From: Methanothrix sp.
GTDB lineage: Archaea; Halobacteriota; Methanosarcinia; Methanotrichales; Methanotrichaceae
NCBI GenBank assembly: GCA_029907715.1
Contig: JARYLI010000001.1
Span: forward strand, 191,278-238,757
Direction of reading: 5' to 3'
Length of the DNA: 47,480 nucleotides
Positions 38,860 through 43,952 of this stretch are shown here, piece by piece; positions within the stretch are counted from its first letter, which is position 1; each line of letters begins with the position of its first letter. Both the position numbers and the translations under genes were made by a program. The notes below the pieces were generated by a model. The model worked only from the letters and a program-made list of their open reading frames with translations, made no database searches and had not been told where the DNA came from.

Positions 38860-39459
38860 TCAGCCCCTCACACGGTTGATCCTCACCTGGAGTATGCCGT
38901 TCTTGAAGCTCCTGCCGCAGATGTCCCCCGCGTCGGGTGGGAGCCTCACAAGCTTCATGAACTCCCCTGCCCGGATATCCAGAACTCCCTCCCTGAGCGC
39001 TACAGAGAGCTCATCCTCCTCCACACCCGGGAGCTCCGCGACGACTGTTATGCTCTCCCCGTCATCCATCACATCGACTATCGGCTCCTTTCTGGGGGCT
39101 CCTGGTATCCTGACCTCGGGCGGTCTTGCTGGTCTTCGTGCCCCCGGTTTGCTCAGAGGCCTTATCGATATACCGTAATCGACAACGGGCTTGCTGCTCC
39201 ATCCAACCTCTATCCTGTGTCGCACCTCTGCGTCAGTCTCTGCTATTCGCCTCTTGAACTCAGGCGAGGATGCCTCAAGGGCTTTTATTATCCCTCCGAG
39301 CCCAGGGATGAACTGGCTCACGATTCCTCCAACTATCGACGGCTCCTCCGCGGGTTTCTTTTTCTCTGCGCTCTCGCCCCTGAGGGTTTTAAGAGCCTTC
39401 TCTATCTCATCCAGCCTGCGTTCTATCCTCTCCAGACGATCTTCATAACCATCTGACAT
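38860..39459 (-). CDS. gvpH: gas vesicle protein GvpH (Hsp20-like)
   Basis: The protein has 199 residues. An N-terminal coiled coil (EDRLERIERRLDEIEKALKT) is followed by a linker with IVSQFIPGLGGIIKALEA and a C-terminal alpha-crystallin-like domain (EPIVDVMDDGESITVVAELP, VALREGVLDIRAGEF, FKNGILQVRINR). GvpH acts as a small chaperone in gas vesicle assembly. The ATG at 39459 has GGAGTGA five bases upstream; a GTG at 39468 is the alternative. It is the last gene of the gvp cluster. Confidence 0.85.
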   Translation of the reverse strand: MSDGYEDRLERIERRLDEIEKALKTLRGESAEKKKPAEEPSIVGGIVSQFIPGLGGIIKALEASSPEFKRRIAETDAEVRHRIEVGWSSKPVVDYGISIRPLSKPGARRPARPPEVRIPGAPRKEPIVDVMDDGESITVVAELPGVEEDELSVALREGVLDIRAGEFMKLVRLPPDAGDICGRSFKNGILQVRINRVRG

Positions 39460-39468
39460 GCCGCTCAC

Positions 39469-40140: not shown

Positions 40141-40794
40141 CTATCTGAATCCCTTCCTGCTCTTCCCCAGGATGTGTATGTCGACGAAGTTGTATGGTGG
40201 CCACGGTCCGGAATAGTTTGTCCTCAGATCGCTGTGCTCCTCGATAATCGCGCTTACACGCTCCGAGAAATTATCTATCCTGGAACGCTCCACGAGAAAC
40301 GCGGTATTGAGAATCAAGCGGTCACTGAAAAGGTCGAGGTTTTTGAAGTCCACTGATACTGTGCTGAGACGTTCCACGATATCCCTTCGAATCTCCTCAT
40401 CCCGGCCGTTCAAATCTACATTCTTCGGCTTGATCACCTTGACCCCCAGCTCGACCCGCCCCTCCACAACAGGCCATGCCTTCTTCATCGCAGCATATCC
40501 AGCACTCATGGCCACAGCAAGGTTCTTTCTTCCCTTGAACACCATACCATATGCGACCGGAAGAACATCATGCTCCTCCATCACCCTCCTGACGACCCTC
40601 CTGTGGATTTCCACGTCTTTTTCCTCGACACCATACTCCTTCAGTTCCGCCTCGCTTACAACAGGGCACAGGTCTCTGTATTCGATGGTGTGAACATCAC
40701 TGTTGCCGAAGCCGATTGGTCCGAAATCCGCATTTTCTGATCTGATCACGCAGTAGACGTAAAGCCCTCTCTGGGTGTCTCTCTTTGGCGGCAA
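40141..40794 (-). CDS. gas vesicle protein GvpF/GvpL
   Basis: The 217-residue protein has the family opening GLYVYCVIRSENADFGPIG, the conserved HRRVVRRVMEEHDVLPVAYGMVF and the C-terminal VDIHILGKSRKGFR. GvpF/L proteins are minor vesicle or assembly proteins that contact GvpA. Only one F/L gene is visible here, where haloarchaea have both. The TTG start at 40794 has GAGGAGG upstream. Confidence 0.88.
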   Translation of the reverse strand: MPPKRDTQRGLYVYCVIRSENADFGPIGFGNSDVHTIEYRDLCPVVSEAELKEYGVEEKDVEIHRRVVRRVMEEHDVLPVAYGMVFKGRKNLAVAMSAGYAAMKKAWPVVEGRVELGVKVIKPKNVDLNGRDEEIRRDIVERLSTVSVDFKNLDLFSDRLILNTAFLVERSRIDNFSERVSAIIEEHSDLRTNYSGPWPPYNFVDIHILGKSRKGFR

Positions 40795-40798
40795 GGCT

Positions 40799-41074
40799 TC
40801 AGACCTCCTCTACCCTCTCCAGGCTTCCTCGATGGCGGAGCTCCATTCTCCGGTAGCCGGTGATCTCGCCGTACTCGTCGAAACTCATCTCATATCTTCC
40901 AACGATATCCTGCGTGTCCGGTATGGCCCTGCGCTCCAGCACCTCCACGTTAACGATCCAGCCACCCTCTGTTCTGGATATGCTGCTTATCGATTCGAAC
41001 CTCTTTCCAAGGAGCTCCTCAGCAGAGGTTCTGGCGATTCTGAGCATATCCCTGAGACCAGGCTTTTCGGTCAT
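40799..41074 (-). CDS. gvpO: gas vesicle protein GvpO
   Basis: This 91-residue GvpO family protein has RDMLRIARTSAEELLGKRFE, GGWIVNVEVLERRAIPDTQD and GRYEMSFDEYGEITGYRRM. GvpO is required for vesicle formation in haloarchaea. It sits four bases before gvpF/L and ten bases after the unknown 120-residue gene. Confidence 0.88.
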   Translation of the reverse strand: MTEKPGLRDMLRIARTSAEELLGKRFESISSISRTEGGWIVNVEVLERRAIPDTQDIVGRYEMSFDEYGEITGYRRMELRHRGSLERVEEV

Positions 41075-41084
41075 CCTTCAACCT

Positions 41085-41447
41085 CTAAGGAACGAATATA
41101 AGATCGCAGTCCCTCAAGGCTTCAACCTGCTTTCCGTGCCAGCCCTTCACCGCCTCTCTGAGGTTGTATCGCCCCTCTCTGTTGATGAGCCCGTAGTACT
41201 TCAGGAACGAGGCCAGCCTTCTTCGCCTTGCTCTGCTTCTTCCTGACGCTATGGTATCGAGATCCACTGTGCCATCCGGCTTCAGGCACAGATAGAATGC
41301 CCTGGCTGCGATCCTGCCGTCATCGGTCATGGCTCTGACAATAAGCGCCTCTGTCTCGTTGATTCGCAGTCCTCTTGGTCTCCTCGAGAAGATCTCACCA
41401 ACACTGGCGATCTCAACATCCTGGATGACGGCGCCGACCCTATCCAC
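41085..41447 (-). CDS. unknown 120-residue protein between gvpN and gvpO
   Basis: The protein starts at a GTG overlapping the gvpN stop by eight bases, after CAGGAGGG. An N-terminal beta part (VGAVIQDVEIASVGEIFSRR, NETEALIVRAMTDDGRIAAR) is followed by a helical, winged-helix-like segment (RRRRLASFLKYYGLINREGR). I know of no gas vesicle family that it matches. Position and coupling make a vesicle-related role likely, either structural or regulatory. Confidence 0.65.
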   Translation of the reverse strand: MDRVGAVIQDVEIASVGEIFSRRPRGLRINETEALIVRAMTDDGRIAARAFYLCLKPDGTVDLDTIASGRSRARRRRLASFLKYYGLINREGRYNLREAVKGWHGKQVEALRDCDLIFVP

Positions 41448-42495
41448 ATGGACCCTCCTGTACAGCTGCTATCGCCTCATGCACCAGCTCCCTCTTCTCC
41501 TCCATCTCCTTCCTGGAGCTGGTCTTGTTGGCGATCACATCTATGCAGATTTGGTCCAGGCTGATGCCGGAGTCTCCGTTAAGCATCCTCAGGCCCTTGC
41601 CGATCATTATGCATGCCCGCGTACCTGGCTTCTGTGCATCCGGAAGCCGCTCCCTCAGGTACCTCACAATCCCAACCACCCTGCGCGCTACATCCTCTGT
41701 TAGCCCGGTATGCTCCATGACAATCCTGACCTCAGTCTCATAGCCGTAGTAGTCTGTGTATATTCCGACCATTCTGTCCAGAAGAGCATCCTGCGGCCTA
41801 TGGATGCCAGCATACTCTATGGAGTTCGAGGTCAGGATGGCTCTGAAATCCGGGTGAACTCTTATGTACCGGTCTTCCCCGAACTTCGTGGGCAGCTCCA
41901 GCACGCCCTCCTCAAAGACGGAGAGGAGGACGTTGTTCGCAGCGGGCTTGGTCCTTGAGAACTCGTTGTATATCAGGGTGTAACCGTACTTGCACGCGAG
42001 CGATAACGGATTATCGACCCACTCCACCTTCATGACATCTCTGCTCTTGAAGACATTGTGAATATATTTGTCTCGAACGCTCTCGTTCTCGATCTGTGAG
42101 TAGCCACCTATGAGATCTGCTGTTGTTATCGACTCATCTCCATTTATCCAGACAACAGGCCTTCCGAACTGCCGGGCGACATGCATCGCGAGGCTGGTCT
42201 TTCCACATCCTGTGGGGCCTATAAGATGTACAGGATAGCCGGCCTCGAGCCAGAGCTTCATCCTCGCCTCGGTCTCCCTGACCTCCGATGTCTCCACAAA
42301 GTGCTCGACATCAGGCATCAGATATGCTTCCTCGATCTCCTTCCTCAGGGCCTCTGGGTCGCGTGCTGCCGTCTGCGATTGCACCTTTACATGAATCTCC
42401 TCACGCTCCTTTGAGAGCAGCAGCTTCTTCTCCCACGAGGTCTGGTGGACAGACTCACCTCTCACACGTCTGGGATGGGTGACAACGTATCTCAT
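41440..42495 (-). CDS. gvpN: gas vesicle protein GvpN (AAA+ ATPase)
   Basis: This MoxR-like AAA+ ATPase has Walker A GPTGCGKTS, the segment WINGDESITTADLIGGYSQ, Walker B-like YTLIYNEFSRTKPAANNVL and sensor-1 ILTSNSIEYAGI. GvpN drives enlargement of gas vesicles from the bicone stage. The ATG at 42495 has GAGGG six bases upstream; a GTG at 42516 is the alternative. An N-terminal extension of about 60 residues precedes the ATPase core. Confidence 0.92.
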   Translation of the reverse strand: MRYVVTHPRRVRGESVHQTSWEKKLLLSKEREEIHVKVQSQTAARDPEALRKEIEEAYLMPDVEHFVETSEVRETEARMKLWLEAGYPVHLIGPTGCGKTSLAMHVARQFGRPVVWINGDESITTADLIGGYSQIENESVRDKYIHNVFKSRDVMKVEWVDNPLSLACKYGYTLIYNEFSRTKPAANNVLLSVFEEGVLELPTKFGEDRYIRVHPDFRAILTSNSIEYAGIHRPQDALLDRMVGIYTDYYGYETEVRIVMEHTGLTEDVARRVVGIVRYLRERLPDAQKPGTRACIMIGKGLRMLNGDSGISLDQICIDVIANKTSSRKEMEEKRELVHEAIAAVQEGPCG

Positions 42496-42535
42496 CTGGA
42501 ACCCTCTGGGGATCACAAAAAATATCTACCGGTGG

Positions 42536-43441
42536 TTAACCGTAGTAGAAATCTCTTATATATCTATTAACATCCTGCTCGACGTATCTCTGCATATCAT
42601 CTCTGAGAGCCAGTGCTCTGGAGTGCAGCTCCCTGGCGGCTGTGTTCATTCTCGATATGGCATCGTGGTTCTCTCTGATCTGGTTTTCCACATCCGCTCT
42701 GAATTTTCTCATGCCATCGTTGAGCTCTCTCGCACCCTCCTCCCTGATGCGCTCACCGGACTTTCTGAAATCGACTGACATCTTATCCATGGCGGATCTG
42801 ATCTCCGCTGCACCAGAGCCCATCCTCGATACAGCATCGCGGTTCTCTCTGATCTGGTTGTCCAGGTCAGCTCGGAAGCTTCTGAGACCCTCGTTTAGCT
42901 CTTTCGCACCCTCCTCCCGAATGCGCTCGCCTGCTTTTCTCATCTCCTCTGAGGTCTTGCCGATTGCGAGCTTCATCTGACGAACGCCGGTGCGTATCTT
43001 TGCTATGCCCTTCTTGTTCTCCGTTGTCTGTTCCTCTATCGACTTTTTAAGGGCGTTAACGCTTTTGGCCATTCTGCTCACACCTTCATCCCGGATGGCG
43101 ACTCCAGCGCTTCTCAGCTCTGCAGACTTTCTCCGCATCGCTTCCTGCCTCGCTCGAACACCCTTCCCCTGTATCGTCAAGGGTATCTCTGCAGACAATG
43201 CTGGCTCGACTTCCGCGGCCTTTGCTGGCACATCCTTTCGCTCTTCTGGTTTCAGCTGAACCTCAGCAGTGCGGATCTCGGCGATCGGGGGCTGAGCCTT
43301 CCTTCTGGCCTCGATTATGCTCTCGGCCAGCTGTGCCTTTGTACCCCCAAGATTCTGGATCCCAAGCTGAACTGCCATCTCCTCCAGTTCTCGCCGGGTG
43401 TGTTTTGTCACCAGTTCTTCTACAGTCTCTTCCATAGGCAT
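42536..43441 (-). CDS. GvpC-position coiled-coil repeat protein with SAP-like N-terminus
   Basis: The protein has 301 residues. Residues 15-46 form a helix-extended-helix (SAP/HeH-like) motif, TRRELEEMAVQLGIQNLGGT. A Pro/Glu linker (50-90) follows, then three tandem 58-residue helical repeats starting at 110, 168 and 226. Each opens with R-x-(A/S)-G-x2-I-R-x-E-G; copies two and three are close to identical in FRAD-x3-QIREN-x-DA-SRM. It lies between gvpA and gvpN, exactly where halobacterial gvpC lies in gvpACNO. GvpC clips across GvpA ribs to stiffen vesicles. I infer a GvpC equivalent, not a recognised homologue. Confidence 0.75.
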   Translation of the reverse strand: MPMEETVEELVTKHTRRELEEMAVQLGIQNLGGTKAQLAESIIEARRKAQPPIAEIRTAEVQLKPEERKDVPAKAAEVEPALSAEIPLTIQGKGVRARQEAMRRKSAELRSAGVAIRDEGVSRMAKSVNALKKSIEEQTTENKKGIAKIRTGVRQMKLAIGKTSEEMRKAGERIREEGAKELNEGLRSFRADLDNQIRENRDAVSRMGSGAAEIRSAMDKMSVDFRKSGERIREEGARELNDGMRKFRADVENQIRENHDAISRMNTAARELHSRALALRDDMQRYVEQDVNRYIRDFYYG

Positions 43442-43472: not shown

Positions 43473-43703
43473 TCAGGCAGGAACTCCCGGTGCTGCGGCT
43501 ATGGCAGCCTGTTCGATCTTCGCCATCTCCTCAGAGTAGTGGAGGAATGTATCGACGGATGCGACCACCACTCTCGCTTCGACTGTCAGTATCTCGATGC
43601 CAACCAGCGATACCCTGGCCCAGACATCGACGACTATGCCCTTGTCCAGGATCCTGTCGAGAACCTCGGCAAGGCTGGACGAATCAGGTGTTGATGTTAC
43701 CAT
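43473..43703 (-). CDS. gvpA: major gas vesicle protein GvpA, copy 2
   Basis: This 76-residue shell protein has the conserved core [40 protein letters not shown] and the C-terminal [12 protein letters not shown]. It is identical to the first copy except for its last residues (PGVPA instead of PSA). GGTGAAAGAGA precedes the ATG. Many copies self-assemble into the hydrophobic wall of the gas vesicle. Confidence 0.96.
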
Positions 43704-43952
43704 TCTCTTTCACCTCACGCGGAAGGTGCTGCGGCTATGGCAGCCTGTTCGATCTTCGCCATCTCCTCAGAGTAGTGGAGGAATGTATCGACGGATGCGA
43801 CCACCACTCTCGCTTCGACTGTCAGTATCTCGATGCCAACCAGCGATACCCTGGCCCAGACATCGACGACTATGCCCTTGTCCAGGATCCTGTCGAGAAC
43901 CTCGGCAAGGCTGGACGAATCAGGTGTTGATGTTACCATTCTCTTTCACCTC
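43489..43952 (-). repeat. 228-bp perfect tandem duplication covering gvpA
   Basis: Bases 43489-43716 and 43725-43952 are identical at every position I compared, offset 236 bp. Each unit spans nearly the whole gvpA frame and its ribosome binding site, including third codon positions. Confidence 0.95.
43715..43939 (-). CDS. gvpA: major gas vesicle protein GvpA, copy 1
   Basis: This 74-residue copy, first of the cluster, is identical to the next copy up to the last few residues, which end PSA. The same GAGGTGAAAGAG leader precedes both, so both should be translated equally well. Two doses of the shell gene fit its high demand. Confidence 0.96.

Follow-up and report, generated by a model that had tools for sequence, protein, structure and literature searches.

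A 301-residue protein encoded between gvpA and gvpN in Methanothrix sp. is best read as the GvpC equivalent of methanogen gas vesicles, an outer rod that would bind the vesicle ribs and reinforce them; we put the probability of this reading at about 0.8. Its gene lies in a window of 47,480 nucleotides, the whole stretch of DNA that was analysed, and the features discussed below are collected in Table 1. An earlier note, made from the sequence of this DNA, had proposed a GvpC equivalent with an unfamiliar repeat length. Gene order, co-occurrence with gvpA, the repeats and a conserved block at the end of the repeat array make this the best-supported reading, although no GvpC profile matches the protein.

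Table 1. Features of the gas vesicle locus, in window coordinates
Feature	Coordinates	Strand	Basis
Candidate GvpC-equivalent gene, 301 aa	42536..43441	-	ORF call and homologues; start possibly 43435
gvpA copy	43473..43703	-	PF00741 and NF046092 matches
gvpA copy	43715..43939	-	PF00741 and NF046092 matches
gvpN	41440..42516	-	TIGR02640, E 7.7e-106
gvpO	40799..41074	-	PF05800
gvpF/L	40141..40794	-	PF06386
Predicted SAP/Rho-N-like three-helix head, residues 5-50	43292..43429	-	AlphaFold2, PDB fold comparison, sub-threshold Rho_N/SAP matches
Predicted disordered linker, residues 51-94	43160..43291	-	pLDDT <50 over 51-94
Single predicted amphipathic helix, residues 95-300	42542..43159	-	AlphaFold2; hydrophobic period 3.62
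58-aa repeat 1, residues 110-167	42941..43114	-	Offset self-match
58-aa repeat 2, residues 168-225	42767..42940	-	Offset self-match
58-aa repeat 3, residues 226-283	42593..42766	-	Offset self-match
C-terminal 32-aa block ending F-Y-Y-G	42539..42634	-	FYYG invariant in 18 and 17 aligned relatives; aligns to haloarchaeal GvpC array end

Genomic setting and distribution

The genes follow one another on the same strand in the order two tandem gvpA, the 301-aa gene, gvpN, a 120-aa ORF, gvpO and gvpF. By coordinates, only 31 bases separate the 301-aa gene from gvpA and 19 from gvpN, gaps short enough to make a single operon likely. Its position between gvpA and gvpN, which the earlier note had reported, is confirmed by profile matches on both sides (PF00741 and NF046092 on one, TIGR02640 on the other). 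The majority of homologues begin at residue 3; thus, the true start may be at 43435.

Several neighbors merit mention in their own right. The two gvpA copies (43473-43939, minus strand) are identical at 216 of 225 bases in an ungapped comparison, which points to recent duplication or conversion. The 120-aa ORF between gvpN and gvpO (41085-41447, minus strand) matches no family above cut-off; relatives occupy the same place at locus L114 and, elsewhere in the phylum, at L117. An Hsp20-like, GvpH-like gene (38860-39468, minus strand) lies near gvpF, and some relatives have an additional GvpH-like gene immediately upstream of gvpA. Just past the window end, two further gvpA-type genes on the opposite strand (G000:C1:239850-240330) probably belong to the other half of the gvp cluster.

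How faithfully does the gene accompany gvpA? The earlier note would have abandoned its proposal had homologues been missing beside gvpA in other Methanothrix genomes; the searches returned the opposite. With gvpA-type genes scored by PF00741, which also picks up gvpJ and gvpM, a relative is present in 19 of the 21 genomes of the order that have such genes (50 searched) and in 32 of the 40 in the class (237 searched), and all 32 are among the 40. Placement between gvpA and gvpN and restriction to gvpA genomes are traits of the GvpC functional class, and the family displays both. Two matches were set aside before these counts were fixed. The only one among the 29 genomes of the order without gvpA-type genes (G025) is weak, contains two stops and comes from a genome with no gvpA (20 matches became 19); the only one among the other 197 class genomes (G125, E 8.4e-4) is a 601-aa membrane signalling-type protein with no gvp genes on the 9,000 bases of contig examined (33 became 32). 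Three weak matches, G203 (E 1e-4), G227 (7e-6) and G229 (1.5e-5, the match crossing a stop), were retained because an open frame ending EFYG lies between gvpA and gvpN or, in G227, beside gvpN at a contig end.

The eight misses in the class fall into two groups. For G030, G037, G112 and G124, the contigs examined do not include the DNA that follows gvpA; in G134, G212, G219 and G224, gvpN or gvpO comes next after gvpA without an intervening gene, and the class search found no family member elsewhere in these four genomes. Absence from four genomes of one family fits a non-essential stiffener. In Methanotrichaceae, coordinates put gvpA directly upstream of the gene, with both on the same strand, in 18 of 19 genomes, the 19th being split by a contig end; in G036, only the last 47 residues are visible, at a contig edge. 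Among 13 more distant loci in the class, the gene lies between gvpA and gvpN in 10 (four with gaps of several hundred bases), and at the other three the contig holds a single neighbor, gvpA or gvpN, with the gene beside it. When 385 genomes of the phylum were searched with the C-terminal block by HMMER, one relative from beyond the class emerged, in G282 (E 6.6e-7), and it too is flanked by gvpA and gvpN. Next in rank was G355 (E 0.0018), where the match falls in a 39-aa frame and the contig also carries gvpA and gvpN. Contig LUZO01000021.1 (L043) holds a Methanothrix-type copy that has several near-identical units; the genome concerned is labelled as that of a Bacteroidales bacterium, and the contig was probably binned wrongly.

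Repeats and relation to known GvpC proteins

The repeats are unambiguous. Within residues 96-301, an offset of 58 gives the strongest self-match by far (1.91 BLOSUM units per position); the next best, at 116 (2 × 58), gives 0.88, the best of 1000 shuffles 0.36, and none of the 1000 reaches the 58-offset score. The three 58-residue repeats of the earlier note are real and their starts, at residues 110, 168 and 226, were correctly placed. Units 2 and 3 appear closely similar by eye, and unit 1 has diverged further. Among relatives, 58 residues is the commonest period, with 33, 65, 25, 32, 43 and 18 also occurring, and in 8 of 18 aligned relatives a loss of 25 residues has cut the first unit to 33.

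A profile search against GvpC families, the check that the earlier note had recommended, gives a divided answer: no curated model matches, yet the C-terminal block can be aligned with the close of the haloarchaeal GvpC repeat array. The 301-aa protein reaches the cut-off of no Pfam or NCBIfam model, including the profiles for the 33-aa repeat of cyanobacterial GvpC (PF01304, TIGR02641) and the 32-aa repeat of haloarchaeal GvpC (PF05465), and the PDB sequences yield no match up to E 10; the clear match to an unrelated family that would have spoken against a GvpC equivalent is not seen. Known proteins served as positive controls: GvpC of Halobacterium and of Haloplanus matches PF05465 (the H. 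salinarum protein in 7 stretches), and Nostoc GvpC matches PF01304 and TIGR02641. Apolipoprotein and fibrinogen matches fall below cut-offs and are taken as helix bias. Across the class, the cyanobacterial profiles match 6 of 236 genomes at E<=0.1, two over cut-off, and none of the six carries gvpA-type genes; PF05465 matches 8 of 392 phylum genomes, none belonging to the class of the source organism.

What, then, links the methanogen proteins to haloarchaeal GvpC? The last 32 residues, taken from 31 relatives, align to residues 214-252 of H. salinarum GvpC, where its repeat array ends (hhalign probability 79%, P 1.5e-5, score 32.1). The best score was 18.5 among 200 column shuffles and 30.5 among 200 shuffles of seven-column blocks; cutting out the array end lowers the score to 21.1 and reversing the haloarchaeal profile to 9.8, and trimming the last eight columns from the query leaves the alignment where it was (20.6). 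In all 10 haloarchaeal GvpCs compared, the repeat array closes with the motif FYG, preceded by D or E in 7 of 10. The set was picked in part by an FYG-type motif that missed two of the ten loci, both of which were recovered motif-free and both of which end in FYG. The methanogen proteins carry this array-end FYG block, a signature proposed here rather than a curated one. Taken singly, six of eight haloarchaeal sequences align to the C-terminal block at this place, and four of eight (H. salinarum GvpC is among the other four) beat all 216 background ORFs, a background from which ORFs carrying (D/E)FY(Y)G had been excluded, which favours the result. The single Nostoc GvpC does not align to the block. 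The HMMER block search of the 385 phylum genomes gave no match at haloarchaeal gvpC places; hence, the link requires profile-profile comparison.

Homology of the repeat bodies was considered and set aside as not significant: block shuffles score as high in 5 of 60 and 8 of 60 cases without the tails and in 4 of 60 with them. Helix bias is strong here, Methanothrix repeats matching their own reverse at 83% and haloarchaeal GvpC its own at 16%; reversed controls are low for most other profile pairs. Probabilities alone therefore mislead, and shuffles were relied on instead. Short, headless proteins ending EFYG (family f7) match the Methanothrix repeats at a probability of 98%, against 0.2% for the reversed profile, and judged by sequence the two are clearly related. 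Common descent with haloarchaeal GvpC is likely.

Haloarchaeal GvpC (PF05465; H. salinarum, L051:9318-10466) resembles the methanogen protein in its place in the order gvpA-gvpC-gvpN-gvpO, in its helical repeats and in the end of its array, which reads (F/Y)(A/V/T)xxFYG in 10 of 10 cases, like the methanogen C-terminus. It differs in its shorter repeats, given as 32-40 aa in the available text of two papers (PMC9501494, PMC9372576), in its C-terminal acidic region and Cys/His globular domain, and in having no N-terminal SAP-like head. The methanogen proteins have no C-terminal Cys/His globular domain; they end in FYYG or FYG. Cyanobacterial GvpC is likewise a straight amphipathic helix made of tandem repeats whose length is near a whole number of GvpA subunits (33 aa for four GvpA; PMC9994262, PMC10185304); unlike the methanogen protein, it has no head, its 33-aa repeat shows a different conserved pattern, and the methanogen protein does not match its profiles.

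The predicted rod, its head and competing explanations

An AlphaFold2 model built on 17 relatives (mean pLDDT 81.5, pTM 0.27) predicts an unbroken helix of 206 residues, with pLDDT mostly >90. The periodicities of hydrophobicity and of conservation are both strongest at 3.62 residues per turn (equalled by none of 300 shuffles in either case), so that 58 residues would make 16 helical turns; an 8.29-residue period was not found inside the predicted helix. A tandem-repeat amphipathic helix is a further trait of the GvpC functional class that the protein is predicted to share. We propose that the C-terminal two thirds would form one long, straight amphipathic helix lying along a GvpA rib on the vesicle exterior and stiffening it; that each 58-residue unit (16 turns, 87 Å) would set equivalent contacts every seven GvpA subunits; and that the conserved C-terminal Y-x-x-(D/E)-F-Y-Y-G may be a fixed contact at the rod end. 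Length variants would gain or lose near-whole helical turns, keeping the contact face.

If the repeats track the ribs, does their unusual length imply unusual vesicles? In cyanobacteria the GvpC helix follows the ribs, lying over helix 2 of GvpA, and one 33-residue repeat (49.5 Å) spans four GvpA at 12.1-12.7 Å, a relation that the cryo-EM studies, in their available text, derive by docking and fitting (PMC9994262, PMC10185304). By the same rule, 58 helix residues (87.0 Å) fall within the 84.7-88.9 Å of seven GvpA, and the 25-residue loss from 58 to 33 in 8 of 18 relatives equals three GvpA fewer. The earlier note had suggested that the repeat is matched to a different vesicle geometry; this is not needed, because 58 for seven and 33 for four share one spacing and one rib geometry could serve both. 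The periods 58, 33, 25 and 65 (eight GvpA) fit 12.1-12.7 Å per subunit, 25 and 33 not being independent of 58; 43 and 18 fit no whole number, and 32 just misses. Because the lengths also come close to whole numbers of helical turns, they could be accounted for by helix phase on its own, and the seven-GvpA register is suggestive only. Over its full length (206 aa, 309 Å), the rod would extend across some 25 GvpA. An extended version of the idea seems unlikely to us: GvpC would act as a ruler of another pitch, gaining and losing whole GvpA spans (7 = 58, 4 = 33, 3 = 25, 8 = 65 aa), while the head would tether vesicles to another cell structure, DNA or neighboring vesicles for example. We know of no GvpC with such a role.

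The SAP-like head of the earlier note is a tentative prediction of fold and falls short as a sequence match. Three helices are predicted (7-13, 16-25 and 35-49), and a comparison of the head by itself with solved structures in the PDB places Rho N-terminal, T4 EndoVII, SAP and FAN1 entries at the top, the best being Rho 1a62 (Z 7.4, under the tool's guide value of 8; rmsd 1.7 Å over 46 aligned residues). Against curated SAP and Rho_N models, the head sequence scores under every cut-off (Rho_N 15.1 bits, cut-off 24.9). The linker ends at G94 and V95, invariant in the aligned relatives. Carried on its flexible linker, the head may act in docking and perhaps corresponds to the globular part of haloarchaeal GvpC, which binds GvpN and GvpO according to the accessible text of PMC9372576.

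That same binding, the proximity of gvpN and the predicted head and linker would also suit an assembly factor, scarce on the finished shell, whose helix and head act in vesicle growth, for example by holding GvpN or GvpO to the rim as it grows. Repeats in tandem, with the same amphipathic face throughout, better suit a periodic surface, the gene order is that of gvpA-gvpC-gvpN, and the head is missing from five relatives of family f7, all of which render this role improbable.

Long all-helical repeats and weak matches to coiled-coil families could instead suggest a cytoskeletal or linker protein that clusters vesicles and has nothing to do with the rib surface. The hydrophobic period bears on this directly: it is 3.62-3.64 in 17 of 18 Methanothrix-type rows (3.58 in the remaining one), against 3.44-3.54 in 12 of 13 windows of SMC from the same genome (3.25 in one) and 3.66 in Nostoc GvpC. 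From these values, the Methanothrix helix is modelled as straight and one-faced, like the cyanobacterial rod. Thirteen further relatives span 3.55-3.64, some distant ones at 3.55-3.57 coming near coiled coils, and eight haloarchaeal GvpCs peak at 3.46-3.52 with weaker power; the period therefore does not define GvpC, and only for the Methanothrix forms does it set the family apart from coiled coils. With co-occurrence with gvpA added, a coiled-coil linker is very unlikely.

Least probable of all is a regulator of gas vesicle genes bound to nucleic acid through the head: nucleic acid binding is common among SAP and Rho-N folds, and 8 of 17 family members give weak Rho_N matches (E<=0.1), but the head is acidic (pI 5.3, net charge -2.4), the f7 relatives do without it and the 206-residue repeat rod would be left unexplained.

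A probable rod for methanogen gas vesicles

The GvpC-like rod that we favour would fill a gap. In the available text of one review, methanogen clusters lack gvpC, and that of Methanosarcina barkeri is given as gvpAAA-NOFG-JHKLM, with a dash where unrelated genes intervene (PMC9501494); gvpC is also missing from the M. barkeri gvp genes listed in a second review (PMC4586473). The accessible portion of a Methanothrix thermoacetophila transcriptome study tabulates Mthe_0055, 0056, 0058 and 0060-0063 as gas vesicle genes and skips 0057 and 0059 (PMC10470525). From gene order and the four gvpA of G046, Mthe_0059 would be the orthologue. Among the matches listed, largely outside subscription papers, no title or abstract opening on methanogen gas vesicles, GvpC or Mthe_0059 describes such a protein, and the partial texts surveyed offer no proteomic or microscopic evidence of it on vesicles.

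The gene that fills the gap would encode a GvpC-like rod in Methanothrix-type genomes and in the five genomes of family f7, presumably Methanosarcina. The rod protein said to be missing from methanogen vesicles is most likely encoded here, with a different repeat length and an extra head. GvpC is altered to tune gas vesicles used as ultrasound reporters, as the available part of one report describes (PMC10344784); a naturally occurring form whose repeats differ in length would make it possible to ask whether repeat length follows the spacing of GvpA along the rib.
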